The position numbers and the translations under genes are program-made. A DNA stretch of 64,000 nt, taken from Deltaproteobacteria bacterium. Lineage in GTDB: Bacteria > Myxococcota_C > UBA6777. Below, piece by piece: positions 23,101 to 35,797 of the stretch. Where the stretch lies: assembly GCA_002731275.1 (NCBI GenBank), contig PCBK01000017.1:1-64000 (forward strand). The letters run 5' to 3'. Each line of letters starts with the position of its first letter. Position 1 is the stretch's first letter. The notes under the pieces are model-generated. The model did not search any database. It was not told where the DNA came from and worked only from the letters and a program-made list of their open reading frames with translations.

Positions 23101-23623
23101 GAAGCCAGACAGTCCACTGTTGTTTAAAATGGAAGTGGAAGAAAACGGCAAGAAGATCCAAGCGCCCATCGAACCAGGTTGGCACCCCTTCTTGCAGTAC
23201 AACAGTATGATTTACGGACTCGCGTTGCTCAACAACCAACTGTCTGATCGTACATTCCAAAACTTCATGCGCGTTGGTATTGAAGGTAGCGGTAAATCCT
23301 GGACACCACCAGGCTCCAAAACTGTCACCTGTCCTGACATCAACAGCGTCACCAAACACTACAGTTGCAAATCCGCTCCCGTACTCTGTTTCATGAACGC
23401 ACAAAAGACACGTACCTACTTCGGTGTTCAAACAGAAGCAAACAACAGCGTCTCTTGGCAGCTCGTCAAGCGTGGCTGTGAGCTTGCTGAAGAAGTCGAG
23501 TTGTTGCGTAATAATACAGCGAACGTCGAGCGTTCGGACATCGAACGTAAAGAGAATGAGCTTCGTCTGCTTGAGACCGTACTCACCTACATGCAGTACT
23601 ACGTCTCGATCTATGGCGGTTGA
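20159..23623 (+). CDS. Giant metzincin-type zinc metalloprotease lipoprotein, copy 1
   Basis: The protein has 1,154 residues. The ATG at 20159 has GAAGGAGG 8 bases upstream. The signal peptide ends in a lipobox (VVTGC), so it is lipid-anchored. The zinc site is HECGHTLSLTH at 629-639 (HExxHxxxxxH), with a later Met-turn SIMDYAG. This fits the zinc-dependent metalloproteases with an EcxA/pappalysin-like catalytic part (DUF5117/DUF5118/Met-zincin group). The long N-terminal half (QFKGEWYYMKT, YYLSPDFPEE) and C-terminal half are shared with the next protein. A short Cys-bearing segment near residues 1058-1082 is absent from the paralogue. The likely role is peptide-bond cleavage outside the inner membrane. 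Confidence 0.88.
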   Translation: MRRHLTVVLLTLASMFLSSIVVTGCAYRRADRSLVQPLALSKKQFKGEWYYMKTVYEAPFESGFFNGQGGWPLGAKIRWEITERYLYAFNASPNVRNTDSELTPLAAWPITSHFDIKPAINYMTGEPSNVIIEERRDGLPWYQRKYMRVMWERQSLSDWTDIFQTYYKWMGVVRVEPANYVAPQKVEMSSDYMTFVSDDLITKIYDSYYNMVIKEIPMSSYRVRTRHAFRKVKTSTYSPKEYNDAMFAKFGNFRTTVVRYNQQRGIVDWSYKFYASRHNVATQEELDKYAADNTPEDQQKPKQVVYYLSPDFPEELMEGVRKVEKGWNEAFQHALQRKDQVFEIRCNGYKMMDGKAECDAAKTGIRRDLGDLRYNFIWWVNPPQAGGLLGYGPSLADPDTGEIVHGSAYIYGAPLRQIVDSYMVLYDMTTGRYKSEDIQNGVEYLNAAFNLNNNLPLALPNGSTQKAINPTVTGPKVRTLNTPAKILTRIKSPGYLQRMLQVKKIDQASITASLSMIDNHPLAKQTLMHDEMVQLAFPGLDPSAVLTNSDAKVQEILNRYHPVEMLKPHRLRDMLNTFLAPSKMNMYMADYYDDVALQSFFKYHIQKKTPRNELRKRIMEFLFVSVTAHECGHTLSLTHNFKGSTDEYNYHDSYHDLAKDGKVKCQDDDKCPPDMKVPASTSKEDITAVQRFYRNASIMDYAGEYYDDTLGVGKTDKAAIAFIYGGLVEKAVSDPREQGELIKWSVEVERKNQNPNDPLKLRPFRFCSDYRVGQDPLCQRWDSGPGAVDIVQRIIKSYDRTYPLRYFRRGRRSYSMNAAFYRNFFGFQHIASIYQDWTYRVITQPGYKKTKDFEDKLQAIQTGFQFFTRILTTPRVGQHEFDKISQTWQLSATSEDIHRVKVDIPVGVARYMFSTVQDGYYGIFRLRRSGSLYDKLLSLMSMSIRSWGYYNNDVNWIYTNFYDLFTEDTTELFQQGISSVWKPDSPLLFKMEVEENGKKIQAPIEPGWHPFLQYNSMIYGLALLNNQLSDRTFQNFMRVGIEGSGKSWTPPGSKTVTCPDINSVTKHYSCKSAPVLCFMNAQKTRTYFGVQTEANNSVSWQLVKRGCELAEEVELLRNNTANVERSDIERKENELRLLETVLTYMQYYVSIYGG

Positions 23624-23670
23624 TCATGAGAAACAGAATACAAATCCTCTTCGGACGGAAGGAGTATAAA

Positions 23671-26600
23671 ATGGCTACCCACCGAAAAAAGTTGTCCCTG
23701 GTGCTCCTATTTTTGGGCGCACTAGTACTTGGGGCTTCAGTGGGAACAGGCTGTGCCATTCAGCGAGGTGAACGCAGTGTCGTTCAACCTCTCGCGCTGA
23801 GCAAGACCCAATTTCAGGGTGAATGGTACTACCAAAAAACAATCACTGAAGCGCCATATGACGCACCTGGCGTATTTATCGGATCGACCTCCACTGGTTA
23901 CAAGATCCGTTGGGAAATCACAGAGCGTTATCTTTACGCTTTCACCACACAACCAAACGTCCGTAACGCGGACTCCACAGTTGCACCAGTCGCGGCGTGG
24001 CCCATCATCGGTCACTTTACGATCCGCCACCGTATCAACTACTCCACAGGACAGCCCTCAAACGTTGTCTCTGAGGACTACATTGATAAGCCCTGGTATC
24101 AACGCCCACACTTCCGCGTTGCTTGGGAACGTTCCTTCATCACAGACTTCTCTAGTTCCTTCTGGATCTACAGAATGTTCGGATATGTCGTAGGCGAAAG
24201 ACCCGTCAACGTACGTCCCGAAAAAGTCCGCATGTTGAAAGACTACATGGACTTTGTCACAGAAGAAGTCATCAGCCCAGGCGTCGGCGCACTCATTGGA
24301 AAACTCAACACTTCCATGCCAGTGTCCGCATACCGCATCAAGTACCGTCACTCGTTCCGCAAGGTTGGTAAGTCCACCTACACACCACAACCCATGAGCG
24401 ACGATCAATTTGAAAAATTCGGATTCTTCCGTACAGCGATCATCAACAACCACATCGACCGTGGTCTCGTTGACTGGAGCTACCAGTACTATGCAAACCG
24501 ACATAACGTCGCGACACAAGCAGAGCTGGATAAGTACGAAGCCGACAAAACTCCTGAAGCAGATCGCAAACCCAAGCAGATCGTCTACTACCTCTCACCG
24601 GACTTTCCCGAGAAGTACAAAGACACTGCTCACCTGATCATGGAAGACTGGAACAAAGCGTTCCAAAACGCGCTGGGTCGTAAAGATCAAGTCGTCGTCC
24701 TCCACGAAAATGACTTCGGTCTGCCTGAAGGACAAAAGCGCGAAATCGGTGATATCCGATACAAGTTCCTCTACTGGGTCGCGAAACCCATCTCCATGGG
24801 ACTGCTCGGATATGGACCTAGCTTCGCAGACTACGACACTGGTGAGATCATCTCCAGCGCCGCGTACGTCTACGGTGCAGTCGTCGACCGCGTCGTCAAC
24901 CGCTTCATGCTTTACTACGATATGGTCAAAGGAACCTATACCGACGAAGAACTTCGTAACGGTAAAGATTACCTCGACATCATCAACAACTTCGGCAACA
25001 GCACAAACGGAACAAGCCAACCTCTGACCGCCAAAAATGGCGTGAAGATTATGCCCCCTGCATACAAAGGCTTTGACATCCAAAAAGCTCACAACTACGT
25101 GCACACTGCTGAATTTAAGCACAAAACACAGCTGCTTAAGAAATTGGACCGCACCGCGATCCAAGCGCGTATGTCAATGCTCGACAACAAACCCCACCTT
25201 CAGTGGGCGATGATGAGCGATGACATGTTGCGTGGCCTGTTCCCACAAACAGAGCCCGCTGCACTTCGCCAATCAAACAGCGACACAGCGCGTAACATCC
25301 TTGAGTCCTACTTCAACCCTGCAAAATTGACTCGCATCACGGGTCTTCGCAAGTTGATGAATGACGCAGATGAGTTCTCCAAGCACAACGCAATGCTCGC
25401 TAACTACGTTGACCCTGCGTTGCAAAAGTTTGTCGTCGCCAACAAAAACCTCAGCCGCTCCGAGCTCGCTGATAAGATGGCACGCATGATCTTCCGTGGT
25501 ACAGAAGCACACGAGATCGGTCACACACTTGGTCTTCGCCATAACTTCTCCGCTTCCGCTGATGAGCCAAACTACTTCCCCGAGTACTTTGAGCTTCAGA
25601 AAAAGCAAGGTGGAAATACTCCAGGTGATGACAAAGACAACCGTCACTCGTGGTTCTACATGTACTCATCTATCATGGACTACCACGGTGAAGTCTATGG
25701 TGATGCAGTCGGTATCGGTAGTTATGACTACGCAGCGATCCGCTATGGTTATGCCGGAAAACTCGAACTGGATAACACAGATGATTTGACACAGTATGTC
25801 AAAAAGGTCGCTTCAGCGTTCAAAACAACTGAGTACTACAAAGATCTCTACACAGAACTCAAGATCGAAGAGAGCGCACTGAAAACAAGCAAAGGTCTCG
25901 ATGGTCAAACCATCTTCGACGCCAACCAGAGCTTGCTCAAGGTTACAGGTGTTAAAGCAGATGGCTCCACCACTTTGATCATGAACTTGACCGCTGATGA
26001 CCTCAGTGGACGTCGTGCACTTCAACGTATCAAGGCGATGTTCAACATCATCCCCCAAGATGCACGTCTCTTCGCAGATGGTTACCTCTTCATCGATGAT
26101 GGAAAGACACCTCTGAAACGACGCTTCTACCGATTCTGCTCTGACGAGCTCGTCGGTCAAAACCCATACTGTAACCGCTTCGACTCCGGTTCCAACCCAC
26201 GCCAGATCGTCGACAACATGATTCGTCGATACGACGGTGTGTACCCACTGGTGAACTGGAGCCGTGGACGTCGTTACTTCCGCTTGGGTTATGGATACCT
26301 CTCCTACCTGATCGGTCGTTTCCGTGTTGTCAACGACTTCTATCAAAACTGGATGTTCCGCGTCATCAACGAAGCCAACTTCGACGGTAGCGCTGAGTAC
26401 TACAACCAGCTCGCTGCGATCTCCAAAGGTCTCGGCTTCATCAGCCGTGTCATCCACACGCCTGAGCCAGGAAACCACGTCCTCGACACCGATCAAAATA
26501 TGTACGTTGCGTCGCCCACCAAAACGGCCAACAACATTAACATCCCCATCGGTATCGGACGTTACTTCTACAGCCGTCTGCAACAAGATGAGCTTGGCCT

Positions 26601-27228
26601 CGCGATGTACCGCTTTGATCGCATCGGTACCATGTACGACAAGTACGTGGCGATGATGACACTTGGTATTCGCGACTGGGGTCTTGTCCGTAACCGCTTG
26701 AACTTCTTCTACGTCAACTTCCTGGATTACTTCTCCAGAGATGATGTCACGGATATGTTCACAGGTTCGATCTCCGGTATCTTCGAGAAGAAATTCGCGA
26801 TGACACACGACGACAAGATGATCGCTCCCAACTTCCACCCTGTCCTCCAGTACTTCAGCATGTACATGGCTATGACCATGCTCAACAGTGGGTTCTTTGG
26901 TAACACCTTTACCCACTACATGACTGTCGCAGCTGTTGGTAGTGGTGATAGTTGGACACCTCCACCAGGTGCCAAGACCATCTCGTTCTCCAACACCTCC
27001 AACACCATGACCTACTTTGCTGTCCAAACACGCGACAACAAGAGTATCGCTTACAAGCTCGTCAAGCTCGGAAACGACTACTCGACGAAGCTCAAAGAGT
27101 TGCGTGCAGCACAGCCCACGTCCGCTGTCAACAACGTCAAGATCAAAGAGCTTGAGTCCAAGCTCCAGTGGGTTGAGACGGTCATCAACATGATGAAGCT
27201 TTATGTAGACACTTACTTCGAAGGATAA
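23671..27228 (+). CDS. Giant metzincin-type zinc metalloprotease lipoprotein, copy 2
   Basis: The protein has 1,185 residues. The ATG at 23671 has AAGGAG 6 bases upstream. The lipobox is VGTGC. The zinc site is HEIGHTLGLRH at 614-624 and the Met-turn is SIMDYHG. It matches the preceding protein over its whole length (QPLALSKTQFQGEWYY, YYLSPDFPE, FYRFCSDE, WTPPPG). It carries an insertion of about 100 residues after the Met-turn (near 720-830) that copy 1 lacks. The two are clearly tandem duplicates that have diverged, perhaps to different substrates. The gap between them is 47 bases, so they are probably one transcript ending at the terminator at 27255. Confidence 0.88.
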   Translation: MATHRKKLSLVLLFLGALVLGASVGTGCAIQRGERSVVQPLALSKTQFQGEWYYQKTITEAPYDAPGVFIGSTSTGYKIRWEITERYLYAFTTQPNVRNADSTVAPVAAWPIIGHFTIRHRINYSTGQPSNVVSEDYIDKPWYQRPHFRVAWERSFITDFSSSFWIYRMFGYVVGERPVNVRPEKVRMLKDYMDFVTEEVISPGVGALIGKLNTSMPVSAYRIKYRHSFRKVGKSTYTPQPMSDDQFEKFGFFRTAIINNHIDRGLVDWSYQYYANRHNVATQAELDKYEADKTPEADRKPKQIVYYLSPDFPEKYKDTAHLIMEDWNKAFQNALGRKDQVVVLHENDFGLPEGQKREIGDIRYKFLYWVAKPISMGLLGYGPSFADYDTGEIISSAAYVYGAVVDRVVNRFMLYYDMVKGTYTDEELRNGKDYLDIINNFGNSTNGTSQPLTAKNGVKIMPPAYKGFDIQKAHNYVHTAEFKHKTQLLKKLDRTAIQARMSMLDNKPHLQWAMMSDDMLRGLFPQTEPAALRQSNSDTARNILESYFNPAKLTRITGLRKLMNDADEFSKHNAMLANYVDPALQKFVVANKNLSRSELADKMARMIFRGTEAHEIGHTLGLRHNFSASADEPNYFPEYFELQKKQGGNTPGDDKDNRHSWFYMYSSIMDYHGEVYGDAVGIGSYDYAAIRYGYAGKLELDNTDDLTQYVKKVASAFKTTEYYKDLYTELKIEESALKTSKGLDGQTIFDANQSLLKVTGVKADGSTTLIMNLTADDLSGRRALQRIKAMFNIIPQDARLFADGYLFIDDGKTPLKRRFYRFCSDELVGQNPYCNRFDSGSNPRQIVDNMIRRYDGVYPLVNWSRGRRYFRLGYGYLSYLIGRFRVVNDFYQNWMFRVINEANFDGSAEYYNQLAAISKGLGFISRVIHTPEPGNHVLDTDQNMYVASPTKTANNINIPIGIGRYFYSRLQQDELGLAMYRFDRIGTMYDKYVAMMTLGIRDWGLVRNRLNFFYVNFLDYFSRDDVTDMFTGSISGIFEKKFAMTHDDKMIAPNFHPVLQYFSMYMAMTMLNSGFFGNTFTHYMTVAAVGSGDSWTPPPGAKTISFSNTSNTMTYFAVQTRDNKSIAYKLVKLGNDYSTKLKELRAAQPTSAVNNVKIKELESKLQWVETVINMMKLYVDTYFEG

Positions 27229-29186: not shown

Positions 29187-30659
29187 TCACATGACTCGAA
29201 CGGGGATTTTTGGAAGCTCTTTTTCACGAGCAAGGGTCAGACGACGATAACCATCGAGCAGTACGTACTGTTCGCCTTCTCGTCGGATACGGATGGGGTG
29301 AAGCTGAAACTTTCCGGCATCGAAAAGCTCTGAGATCTCTTCATACCGTTTATCTTTGACATCATAGTCATCAAATTGCACAGGGACGAGGATCTCTTCG
29401 AGCGCCAATTCTTTGGGGTGATTGTTTGGTAGCTCAGGTGACTTCTCCAAAAATGCCTTGAGATTCGTACTCGATTCGAGGAGAAACTCGTTCCCTTCAG
29501 AGGCTTTGGCGACACTGTGTTTGAAGACAAATACAACCCCACCTTCATCGAGCTCCAACAAGAATTGAAAACGATCGGACCAACCCACTTTCCCTTTTAA
29601 CAACAACCCATCGTGTGTCACGAGCGAAAGGGAAGAGCCGCTTTTGAGAAGATCATCGGAGAGCTCAATCCGCCGGGAAGGCTCACGTGGCGGATATTGC
29701 AACAAAGACATCTGATCGAGATTGACATGTATCTGGCTGAGAATGGCGTCTGCTTCGGAGGAAACATAGACAAAAACACATCCGAGCTTGCGCAAACGAA
29801 GGGCTTCTTGGTGTTCCGTTTTCATGATCAACATGAGCGGCTGGATCTCTGTAATCACCCCTTCAAAGCGAGGAGAGTGGAATCGCCAAACGGAGACAGA
29901 GTTCCCCTCTTCACTACGATTTCGCAGAAACTCATCCCCCATCGAGCCGAGATGTGCTTCTTGTTCGAGTCGCTCAGCGAGTAATTTCATCCGCTCTTCT
30001 TGTAATTCCTTCGCCCGATCACGCTCTTCAGAAGTACGTGTCGAGAGGGACTTCTTCTTTTTCTGTGCGCGACGCTTCAGGAACTCTTCATAGCTGATAT
30101 TTTCTCGCAATAATTGCCCGGCAACAGCACGAGTCAGGTCGGGATATCGGCTCACAAGACGATCAAGCTTTGCTTTTCGTTCGGCCTCTTTGGAGAGACG
30201 ATTTGAGCGTTTTTTCCCACCACCGCGCGGACCACCGCCACGAGGACCACCACGTGGTGGTGGCTTTCGGCCTCTGTGACGCTTTTGCTGCCGCTCTTGC
30301 TGTCGTGCGCGTGCCCGCGCTTTTCTTTGCTCTTCCGCACGGCGTTCGAGAAACTCTTCGGGGGTGATATTTTCTTTAACGATGAAGGTCGCTTCTTCTT
30401 CCGAAATGTTTTTATGTTGAGAACAAATGAAGGCGATCATACGCTTTTCTTTCGCGATACGTCGGGCTTCCCGTTCTTCTTCTTTTTTCGCGTGCCACTC
30501 TTCAAAAGAGATCCCCATGTTCAAAATTTCGAGCGCTTCTTCGCGCTCAAGGGATGGGTGATCTTGGAGAAGTCCCGCCAGAAGAGCTTTCTTACTGGTC
30601 TTGTTACTTTTCTTCTTTTTTGAGGGGGTAGGTGCGCTTTTTTTCTTACGTTTTGCCAT
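29187..30659 (-). CDS. Probable RNA-binding protein: helical repeats, RGG region, two Sm/Hfq-like domains, ParB-like domain
   Basis: The protein has 490 residues from the ATG at 30659, with AAAGGAG upstream. Residues 1-25 are Lys-rich. Three related helical repeats lie at about 25-60, 73-110 and 165-200, each ending in a motif like NISYEEFLKRRA. An RGG-type basic, Gly-rich stretch lies at 126-149. Residues 252-300 and 341-386 look like Sm folds; the second has HDGLLLKGKVGWSDRFQF and then VFKHSVA at 378-384, very like Hfq (NG-x-x-L-x-G-x-x-x-x-F-D-x-F and YKHAIS). Residues 450-489 match the core of ParB/Srx-like domains (PIRIRREGEQYVLLDGYRR, then IPVRV). The domain calls are by eye. A role in RNA binding or regulation is inferred. 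The deoxynucleoside kinase gene lies 223 bases upstream, and that gap holds no gene. Confidence 0.75.
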   Translation of the reverse strand: MAKRKKKSAPTPSKKKKSNKTSKKALLAGLLQDHPSLEREEALEILNMGISFEEWHAKKEEEREARRIAKEKRMIAFICSQHKNISEEEATFIVKENITPEEFLERRAEEQRKARARARQQERQQKRHRGRKPPPRGGPRGGGPRGGGKKRSNRLSKEAERKAKLDRLVSRYPDLTRAVAGQLLRENISYEEFLKRRAQKKKKSLSTRTSEERDRAKELQEERMKLLAERLEQEAHLGSMGDEFLRNRSEEGNSVSVWRFHSPRFEGVITEIQPLMLIMKTEHQEALRLRKLGCVFVYVSSEADAILSQIHVNLDQMSLLQYPPREPSRRIELSDDLLKSGSSLSLVTHDGLLLKGKVGWSDRFQFLLELDEGGVVFVFKHSVAKASEGNEFLLESSTNLKAFLEKSPELPNNHPKELALEEILVPVQFDDYDVKDKRYEEISELFDAGKFQLHPIRIRREGEQYVLLDGYRRLTLAREKELPKIPVRVM

Positions 30660-33160: not shown

Positions 33161-33343
33161 ACCGTGCTCTATGCGAAAAAACTCCCATATCGAATAAAGA
33201 TTCGATTTTCTCAGAGGTTCAATCTTTAAACTTTGAATGCGACACATAAACAATGCAAAATCCCTCAGTGTCCAATGAGGCTTACAAGCATATCAAAGTG
33301 ACCCAAGCATGAATTTTTCCCATCTTTGGAGGAATACAAACCC

Positions 33344-35797
33344 ATGAAACATAGTCTGCGCCTTACAGGCCTCTTACTCGCAACCATTTTTAGCATCACA
33401 TCGATGATGTATGCCTGTTCCCCCCCCCCTGCTGAATGTTCGGCCGACAAAGCCTGCCCAAGCGGGCAAACCTGCTCCTCCGAAGGCAAGTGTGTCTCCG
33501 ATAACAAAGAGCAAGGCGATACAGAAAAGTCTGAAGAGAAAAAAGGCGAAGACAAGAAACAAGACGAACCTACCAAAGATGACACCGCTGATGGTGGTAC
33601 AGAGCCCACGCCCGACACAGAACCTAAAAAAGATGGGGGAGTGTGTCCTCTAGGGTGCCCGGATTGTGATGGTGGTACGACACCAACAAACGAACCATTA
33701 ACCCTCGGCACGAGCTGTACAGAGCCCTATAAAGGTGCTGAGTGTACCGCCCAGCAAGCATGTGACAGCGGTTCAACCTGCTTGAAACCCAACGCTTACG
33801 CGACAAAAACATACTGCTTCGTCGAGTGTACAGCAGACACAGATTGTAAGGCTGCTTCTGACAAAGCGGGCAAAACTCTCACTTGTCAGACTGTCTCAGG
33901 CAAAAAAGTCTGCGCTGAAAAAGAGAGCTGTGACAGCACAAAGAACCATCGCTGTATCCAAAACGGAATCAACGATGTCGGTTACTGTTACAGGTCATGT
34001 AACACCGACACAGACTGTGATCAGGGACAAAAGTGCCAGGATGATAAATTCTGCGCGACACGCGTCGCAGAGCTCGAAGCTTGTAACTACTCCAGACAAG
34101 CATTCTGTGATGCAGGACTCATCTGTCTCGTCAGCAACTCAGAGCAAACAGCCGGTATCTGTTACAAACAATGTCAGCAAGAGCAACAATGTGATGCGAC
34201 AAAAGACTTGACTTGTCGAGCATTTAACGCGAGCGACCCCACCAACAAACTCTGTATGCCCAAGATCTACGATGGTCCTCTCTGTATCGGACAAACTTGT
34301 AACACATCCGCGACCGCAACAAACTGCCAAAAAGGCCTCGTTTGTGATGGAGGAACATGTGTCAAAACATGTTCCAGCGCAGCGGACTGTGACACAGCTT
34401 CGGGTGAAGAATGTAAGATCGTCGACATCACCAAACCAAAAGTCTGTCTGCTCCCCCCCTCCGTCACCAAATCTGGCGAAAAGTGCAACAACTTTGACAA
34501 ACGATGTGATGATACCAAAGGACTTAGCTGCGCGAGTATCACCGAAGGCAACTCCATCTGTTTGAAGACTTGTGATCCCAACAAGACCAACCAGGCCACA
34601 GGAATCAACCCCGATTGTGACGCAGGTGACATCTGTCGTGCAACCCAAAACGGCAGCGCTTTCTGTCTCAAAGGTAGCGACAAAAACGGCTCCTGTGTCG
34701 TTCCCAACACATGTAAAAGCTCCAACGATGTCTGCGTTGGCTTCTCATCAGACGGTACAGAGTCTTACTGTCTTGGACCATGTGATCCCAAAAAGAACAA
34801 AAGCGAAGACGACGAAAGCAACCCCGACTGTGCAGACGCACAAGGAAACTTGGGTCGTTGTGTCACGCTGACAAATGGTAGCGGCGCGTGTATCCCTTAC
34901 CGACCCAAGACCAAAAAAGCCGGCGAAAACTGCGGAACAGACGGAAACCTCGTCGCACCAGACTGTGAAGATGGCTTGCGTTGTGTCAACCTGGGTAGCG
35001 GTCCCACTTGTTACGTAGATTGTGACCCATGTACAGCCAAGCTCGACTCGACTGGAGAGTGGAAACACCCCAAATGTAACGGCGGAAAAGATGCTTGTTC
35101 TGCGCTTACATACTCAGACGGTCGCGCTGCGGGTGGTGTTTGTCGAACTTCCGGTGACCCTGTCCTCGACGATGGAGAGTACTGTGACGAGCCTGGAAAA
35201 GGCTGTAAAGAAGGTCTTACCTGTGTCAACTTCTCCAACGAAGAAGGCGCACGCCCCATCTGCTCTGGAGAATGTATCCCCGGCGAACAAGGACAGTGTA
35301 ACGGCGGAAGTTGTGCTTCCCTTACAAGTGGTGGTGGTGTCTGCCTCCCACAAGCCAAGCGAAAAGTCGACCTCGGTGGCGAATGCCTTGGTACTCGCGG
35401 AACGGATGGCTTCCATGACTGTTTGGAGAAGAGCAAAGACGGCAAACCGCTCGTCTGTGCCCTCCCCGCCTTCGCAGGCGCCAAACGAACCTGCCAGATT
35501 TTGTGTAACCCTGTTGACGGGATTCAAAACAACACTGGATGTAAAGCACAAGGACTCAACAACCACCTCTGCCTCTCCGCAGATGAAAGAGATCCCAAAA
35601 AAGGTGCTTGCCTCGAAAAATGTCAGCTCATCGACAAGCTCCGTTGTAAAACAAGCGCTTGCCAACTTGGCGTCTGCCAAGAAACCAGCGTAGGACGACG
35701 TGGTGAGTGTACAACCGCCGCAAAAGAGAAAGAGTGTGCAGACACCTTTGGCGGTACATGTGTTGACAAAACTTGTATTGTCAGCCTTTGTAACTAA
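33344..35797 (+). CDS. Large Cys-rich lipoprotein
   Basis: The protein has 817 residues. The ATG at 33344 has GGAGGA 10 bases upstream and opens a signal peptide with lipobox MMYAC. After a short Cys-rich segment (CSADKACPSGQTC) there is an acidic, Lys/Glu-rich linker (about 55-110) that probably spans away from the membrane. The rest is a chain of Cys modules with CTADTDC, CNTDTDC and CSSAADC motifs, similar to the Dickkopf-like Cys-rich domains seen in myxobacterial proteins. More than 70 Cys suggests a rod held by disulphides. It shares style and many motifs with the next gene. A terminator at 35815 follows. Function unknown; surface adhesion or structure is a guess. Confidence 0.85.
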   Translation: MKHSLRLTGLLLATIFSITSMMYACSPPPAECSADKACPSGQTCSSEGKCVSDNKEQGDTEKSEEKKGEDKKQDEPTKDDTADGGTEPTPDTEPKKDGGVCPLGCPDCDGGTTPTNEPLTLGTSCTEPYKGAECTAQQACDSGSTCLKPNAYATKTYCFVECTADTDCKAASDKAGKTLTCQTVSGKKVCAEKESCDSTKNHRCIQNGINDVGYCYRSCNTDTDCDQGQKCQDDKFCATRVAELEACNYSRQAFCDAGLICLVSNSEQTAGICYKQCQQEQQCDATKDLTCRAFNASDPTNKLCMPKIYDGPLCIGQTCNTSATATNCQKGLVCDGGTCVKTCSSAADCDTASGEECKIVDITKPKVCLLPPSVTKSGEKCNNFDKRCDDTKGLSCASITEGNSICLKTCDPNKTNQATGINPDCDAGDICRATQNGSAFCLKGSDKNGSCVVPNTCKSSNDVCVGFSSDGTESYCLGPCDPKKNKSEDDESNPDCADAQGNLGRCVTLTNGSGACIPYRPKTKKAGENCGTDGNLVAPDCEDGLRCVNLGSGPTCYVDCDPCTAKLDSTGEWKHPKCNGGKDACSALTYSDGRAAGGVCRTSGDPVLDDGEYCDEPGKGCKEGLTCVNFSNEEGARPICSGECIPGEQGQCNGGSCASLTSGGGVCLPQAKRKVDLGGECLGTRGTDGFHDCLEKSKDGKPLVCALPAFAGAKRTCQILCNPVDGIQNNTGCKAQGLNNHLCLSADERDPKKGACLEKCQLIDKLRCKTSACQLGVCQETSVGRRGECTTAAKEKECADTFGGTCVDKTCIVSLCN

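Follow-up and report, generated by a model that had tools for sequence, protein, structure and literature searches.

Results

Layout of the gene and its protein

The window, by which we mean the whole stretch of 64,000 nucleotides analysed here, carries on its minus strand an open reading frame of 490 codons plus stop, which starts with an ATG at position 30659 and is preceded, 8 nt upstream, by the Shine-Dalgarno sequence AAGGAG. As judged from profile comparisons and structure prediction, the encoded protein (hereafter the window protein) joins helical repeats, an RGG arm, two Sm/Hfq-like domains and a minimal ParB/Srx-like core in a single chain (Table 1). Elsewhere in the window, positions 23620-27228 encode a 1202-aa lipoprotein-like Met-zincin (DUF4953) protease, and positions 33326-35797 an 823-aa cysteine-rich protein of secreted type with no Pfam match.

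Table 1 Features of the gene for the window protein (positions are those of the window)
Feature	Residues	Positions	Strand	Basis
Whole gene: helical repeats-RGG-helical repeat-Sm1-Sm2-ParB-like core	490 aa	29187..30659	-	ORF, translation, relatives
Helical repeat 1	21-67	30459..30599	-	internal repeat alignment; AF2 all-helical
Helical repeat 2	70-116	30312..30452	-	internal repeat alignment; AF2 all-helical
RGG/RGGG low-complexity stretch	128-151	30207..30278	-	sequence; residues 135-149 predicted disordered (AF2)
Helical repeat 3	160-206	30042..30182	-	internal repeat alignment; hhalign to relatives' repeats
Sm1, Hfq-like	238-301	29757..29948	-	profile against PDB Hfq, hhalign, AF2 strands, residue survey
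Sm2, Hfq-like	329-388	29496..29675	-	profile against PDB Hfq, hhalign, AF2 strands, residue survey
ParB/Srx-like core	414-490	29190..29420	-	profile against PDB ParB; hhalign; low-confidence AF2

An earlier note on this DNA had described three related helical repeats and an RGG stretch in the N-terminal part, and repeat alignment, sequence and the AlphaFold2 (AF2) model agree with that description. The three repeats align with one another and, in hhalign, with the repeats of distant relatives (95.9%, 5.4e-9); no significant relative was found among known families or solved structures. The RGG stretch is longer in the protein of a second genome of the same phylum (P0002), which has the same domains and, within the family alignment, shares 44% identity with the window protein.

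Both Sm domains match Hfq

Taken alone, the window protein gives only sub-threshold Hfq matches in Pfam and NCBIfam, at residues 340-384 within the second Sm domain (E 2.3e-4 for Pfam Hfq, and 2.2e-3), and the curated cut-offs for Hfq proper (TIGR02383, PF17209) are missed (21.1 versus 27 bits; 17.8 versus 61.7 bits). Since the Pfam match by itself does not reach significance under the curated thresholds, the case for the Sm domains rests on family profiles. Built from 13 family members and compared with the PDB, these profiles matched Hfq chains at 2.8e-8 for Sm2 and at 9.1e-5 for Sm1, where the leading matches were all Hfq; a profile made from the window's phylum alone reached Hfq at 1e-5. 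In agreement with this, hhalign against six single-domain Hfq proteins yielded 97.5% and 5.9e-12 for Sm2 and 95.1% and 3.1e-8 for Sm1. The matches stand above noise: among 100 column-shuffles for each comparison (Sm1, Sm2 and the ParB-like core), none attained half of the observed score.

The five strands of the Sm fold occur twice in an AF2 model computed from a 20-row alignment, with a pLDDT of about 83-93 for both domains. In Sm1, a helix (240-250) precedes strands at 255-259, 262-272, 276-281, 286-290 and 294-299; in Sm2, where the preceding helix is short or missing, the strands are at 343-348, 352-361, 365-370, 375-379 and 383-388. A Foldseek search with this model retrieved the Hfq-RNA complex 1kq2 at an rmsd of 1.2 Å over 59 columns (TMt 0.85). 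The model of a relative, L052 (bacterium isolate JZ-2.bins.100), reached a pLDDT mostly >90 in both Sm domains, and the best 50 PDB matches listed for it by Foldseek were all Hfq. By profile and predicted fold, both Sm domains of the window protein belong to the Sm/Hfq superfamily. The earlier note had read residues 341-386 as the Hfq Sm core and residues 252-300 as a second, weaker copy; both readings hold, with the wider extents given in Table 1. Neither of the two outcomes that the note had named as refuting it occurred: the profile matches exceed noise, and the predicted structure has the five-strand Sm fold.

Retained and lost residues of the uridine pocket

We mapped 59 Sm1 and 59 Sm2 copies on E. 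coli Hfq. In this survey, whose counts are not independent because many of the copies are closely related, lysine occupies the K56 position in every Sm1 copy (59/59), while Sm2 has F or Y at position 42 in 59/59, K or R (mostly R) at position 56 in 53/59 and H at position 57 in 56/59 copies. Q8 and the distal-face Y25 are lost in both domains, and RNA specificity must therefore differ from that of E. coli Hfq. Within the window protein, Sm1 is divergent, having lost H57 and keeping the K56 equivalent as residue 291; Sm2 keeps the equivalents of F42, K56 and H57. This pattern would fit a proximal-type pocket shared by two unlike domains, as might be expected in a three-chain ring.

The tandem Sm unit might instead be a scaffold or ribosome-associated platform, comparable to tandem Tudor or KOW domains, whose arms bind rRNA or the translation machinery. 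Such a role could be suggested by the Foldseek search with the window model, in which some tandem Tudor proteins appear next to Hfq in the ranking, though with low TM-scores, and by a TPR-type paralogue of the window protein that in each of the phylum's five genomes adjoins an additional EF-G-like gene. However, Hfq is the only Sm/SH3-like fold to which the sequence profiles give significant matches, the best 50 matches listed for L052 contain Hfq only, and the residues of the Hfq uridine pocket are, Q8 excepted, largely kept. We therefore regard a pure platform as rather unlikely.

A minimal ParB/Srx-like core at the C-terminus

The ParB/Srx-like C-terminal core proposed earlier was recovered by a four-row profile of residues 414-490 against PDB ParB (5.7e-7) and, with 97.7% and 2.5e-12, by hhalign against five domains of ParB type encoded in the same genome; AF2 confidence is low for this part. 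At the Box II position the window protein reads DGYRR and all four relatives DG[YF]RR, so that Y or F replaces the E of GERR. The chain ends at residue 490, before Box III (ENxQR), the helix-turn-helix and the C-terminal dimerisation domain of ParB; the genome's own ParB (L108) runs on into a Box III-like stretch, ENVQRENLSPVEEA. Because everything from Box III onwards is lacking, we take the core of the window protein to be a ParB/Srx-fold module and not a ParB. ParB-type CTPase activity is doubtful because the E of GERR is replaced and the chain ends before Box III. Within the window's phylum, the ParB form was found in two genomes only, out of five. The same genome also encodes an RluA-type pseudouridine synthase (L113:865-2394, G000:C160) with an N-terminal ParB/Srx-like mini-core, which in a small comparison was closest to the core of a tandem-Sm protein from another phylum.

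Hfq is able to bind DNA too, and the ParB-type domain is real, so the window protein could be a DNA or nucleoid protein in which the core and the basic arms contact DNA and the Sm domains only oligomerise. We consider this distinctly improbable: the core lacks the parts of ParB from Box III onwards, one pseudouridine synthase of this genome carries a similar mini-core, and in relatives the place of the partner is taken by cold-shock domains.

The tandem Sm unit occurs in several phyla

The window's phylum was represented by five genomes, all of one family. Each of them has the TPR-type paralogue (loci G000:C3 (L118:8049-9557), L003, L004, L005 and L119), which has one helical repeat and both Sm domains in common with the window protein. 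Its N-terminus is TPR-like, and four of the five copies contain a long disordered linker. Nudix and aldehyde dehydrogenase-like genes lie near it in some genomes.

A core profile search of 386 genomes detected the Sm-Sm unit in other phyla and in four architectures. TPR-like part, linker, helical repeats, both Sm domains and ParB-like core follow one another in L019 and L020, from another phylum (the core of L052 is the same as that of L019, and the two probably represent the same genome). A cold-shock domain and a linker precede Sm-Sm in Poribacteria and in a phylum made up of the two genomes G047 and G192, helical repeats precede it in L026 and L123, and L022 and L024 consist of Sm-Sm with little else. 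A first core alignment of five rows had no sufficiently conserved stretch; a named collection of genomes, scanned with an alignment of members outside the window's phylum, gave 46 loci, 45 of them Poribacterial. Weak matches at L015, L016 and L036 were put down to chance. A phage origin found no support, as two scans of viral collections returned no relatives.

Some further observations concern these loci. A CxxCxxCC (YkgJ-like) family is encoded at 41 of the 46 scan loci (L053-L097), in most cases directly after the Poribacterial tandem-Sm gene and on the same strand. The phylum of G102 has a second, short Sm-Sm protein of about 153 aa (L051 in G368:C12; L050 in G102, where the frame holds one stop). 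A further Poribacterial variant of 296 aa (L099 in G394) has a different N-terminal region and scores above the Hfq cut-off.

The alignment of P0002 with the cross-phylum L020 extends over 325 residues (E 3e-19), which means that this domain order either is of ancient origin or moved as one piece, and is not an accident of assembly. Between L019 and L020, dN/dS is 0.10 for the repeats, 0.09 for Sm-Sm and 0.05 for the ParB-like core, and 0.79 for the linker; the low values outside the linker indicate that the ordered parts are under selection. The source genome is a 10.75 Mb draft (200 contigs; contamination estimated at 5.5%), and a mis-assembled chimera or a chance resemblance might have been feared on that account; we attach practically no weight to this explanation. 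It is refuted by independent relatives with the same domain order, which come from a second genome of the phylum and from two genomes of another; strong purifying selection on the ordered domains and the shuffled controls, where 0 of 100 approached the observed scores, also speak against it. The fusion in the window protein is thus real and conserved. The domain composition read in the earlier note stands in every part; the arrangement is not unique to the window protein, which represents one architecture within a multi-phylum tandem-Sm family. Searches of the open-access literature brought up no description of this family, and on that basis we regard it, with its members in several poorly known bacterial phyla, as undescribed.

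Canonical Hfq in genomes with tandem-Sm proteins

None of the five genomes from the window's phylum gave a match above the cut-off for canonical Hfq; the earlier observation that the window has no separate hfq thus extends to the whole genome and to the phylum as examined. The search was extended to 20 further genomes, 19 of them distinct (the matches in G320 and G395 coincide). Canonical Hfq was not found in the 18 tandem-Sm genomes outside the window's phylum. G252 has both a canonical Hfq and a double-Hfq; the only other match above the Hfq cut-off, in G394, falls in the tandem variant L099, and the remaining matches were sub-threshold and mostly inside long tandem-Sm frames. The case for absence is strong and not final, as draft genomes can miss genes. 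Since these phyla seem to lack ordinary Hfq, the tandem-Sm family may stand in for it there.

Discussion

We think it probable that the tandem Sm-Sm protein is an Hfq-like RNA chaperone that forms a three-chain ring of paired Sm domains and whose ParB-like core is a possible nucleotide switch. Three chains would assemble into a pseudo-hexameric ring in which Sm1 and Sm2 alternate. The proximal face of this ring would hold U-rich RNA or RNA 3' ends through the retained aromatic, K/R and H residues, and the helical and RGG arms would add RNA contacts, for which relatives may use their cold-shock domains. Where Hfq is lacking, the protein could in this way bring RNAs together or stabilise them. 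The ParB-like core may sense a nucleotide or recruit a partner. The role as RNA regulator is suggested by domain content and retained residues. RNA-associated parts share the chain with Sm-Sm in the window protein (RGG) as well as in the Poribacterial relatives (cold-shock domain). A bolder version, which we put forward only tentatively, is that several phyla replaced Hfq with tandem-Sm chaperones and that in two of them a ParB-type module gates RNA binding with CTP, ATP or GTP.

Hfq is said to be absent from large parts of the bacterial tree. For sRNA regulation in phyla without Hfq, the tandem-Sm family, with its cold-shock, RGG, TPR-like or ParB-like partners, provides a concrete and testable candidate. 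Its members fall under the Pfam and NCBIfam cut-offs and are therefore missed by annotation. A domain of nucleotide-binding type on an RNA chaperone would be a new principle of control.

Among known systems, Hfq (PF17209, TIGR02383) shares with the window protein the Sm fold of an N-terminal helix and five strands, and the equivalents of D9, F42, K56 and H57 are kept in Sm2. In contrast to Hfq, the window protein has two Sm domains per chain and large N- and C-terminal additions, remains below the curated cut-offs and lacks Q8 and the distal-face residues. The 'atypical Hfq' case of FlgV (PMC11607428) was weighed as a warning; FlgV is without the Sm fold, whereas the window protein has one.

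Two Sm units per chain are likewise found in the double-Hfq type RNA chaperone (NCBIfam NF010691/PRK14091, about 176 aa), to whose model the window protein scores 12.8 bits and so does not reach the cut-off of 270. L027, provisionally assigned to the double-Hfq type by its length, matches the Hfq model strongly and, unlike the window protein, has no extra domains; its genome also has a canonical Hfq. In the Poribacterial relatives, Sm-Sm is joined on its N-terminal side to a cold-shock domain like that of the CspA family of bacterial proteins, whereas the window protein has helical repeats and RGG instead.

For the C-terminal part, the closest parallel lies in the ParB-CTPase-fold domains, for which fusions with RNA-related domains and binding of CTP, ATP or GTP have been reported (PMC12704722); the main text of that survey makes no mention of Hfq or Sm-like domains. 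Like those ParB-CTPase/Srx fold fusions, the window protein combines a ParB-type core with unrelated, in their case sometimes RNA-related, domains (PMC12704722); it differs from them in that its core is minimal and placed at the C-terminus.
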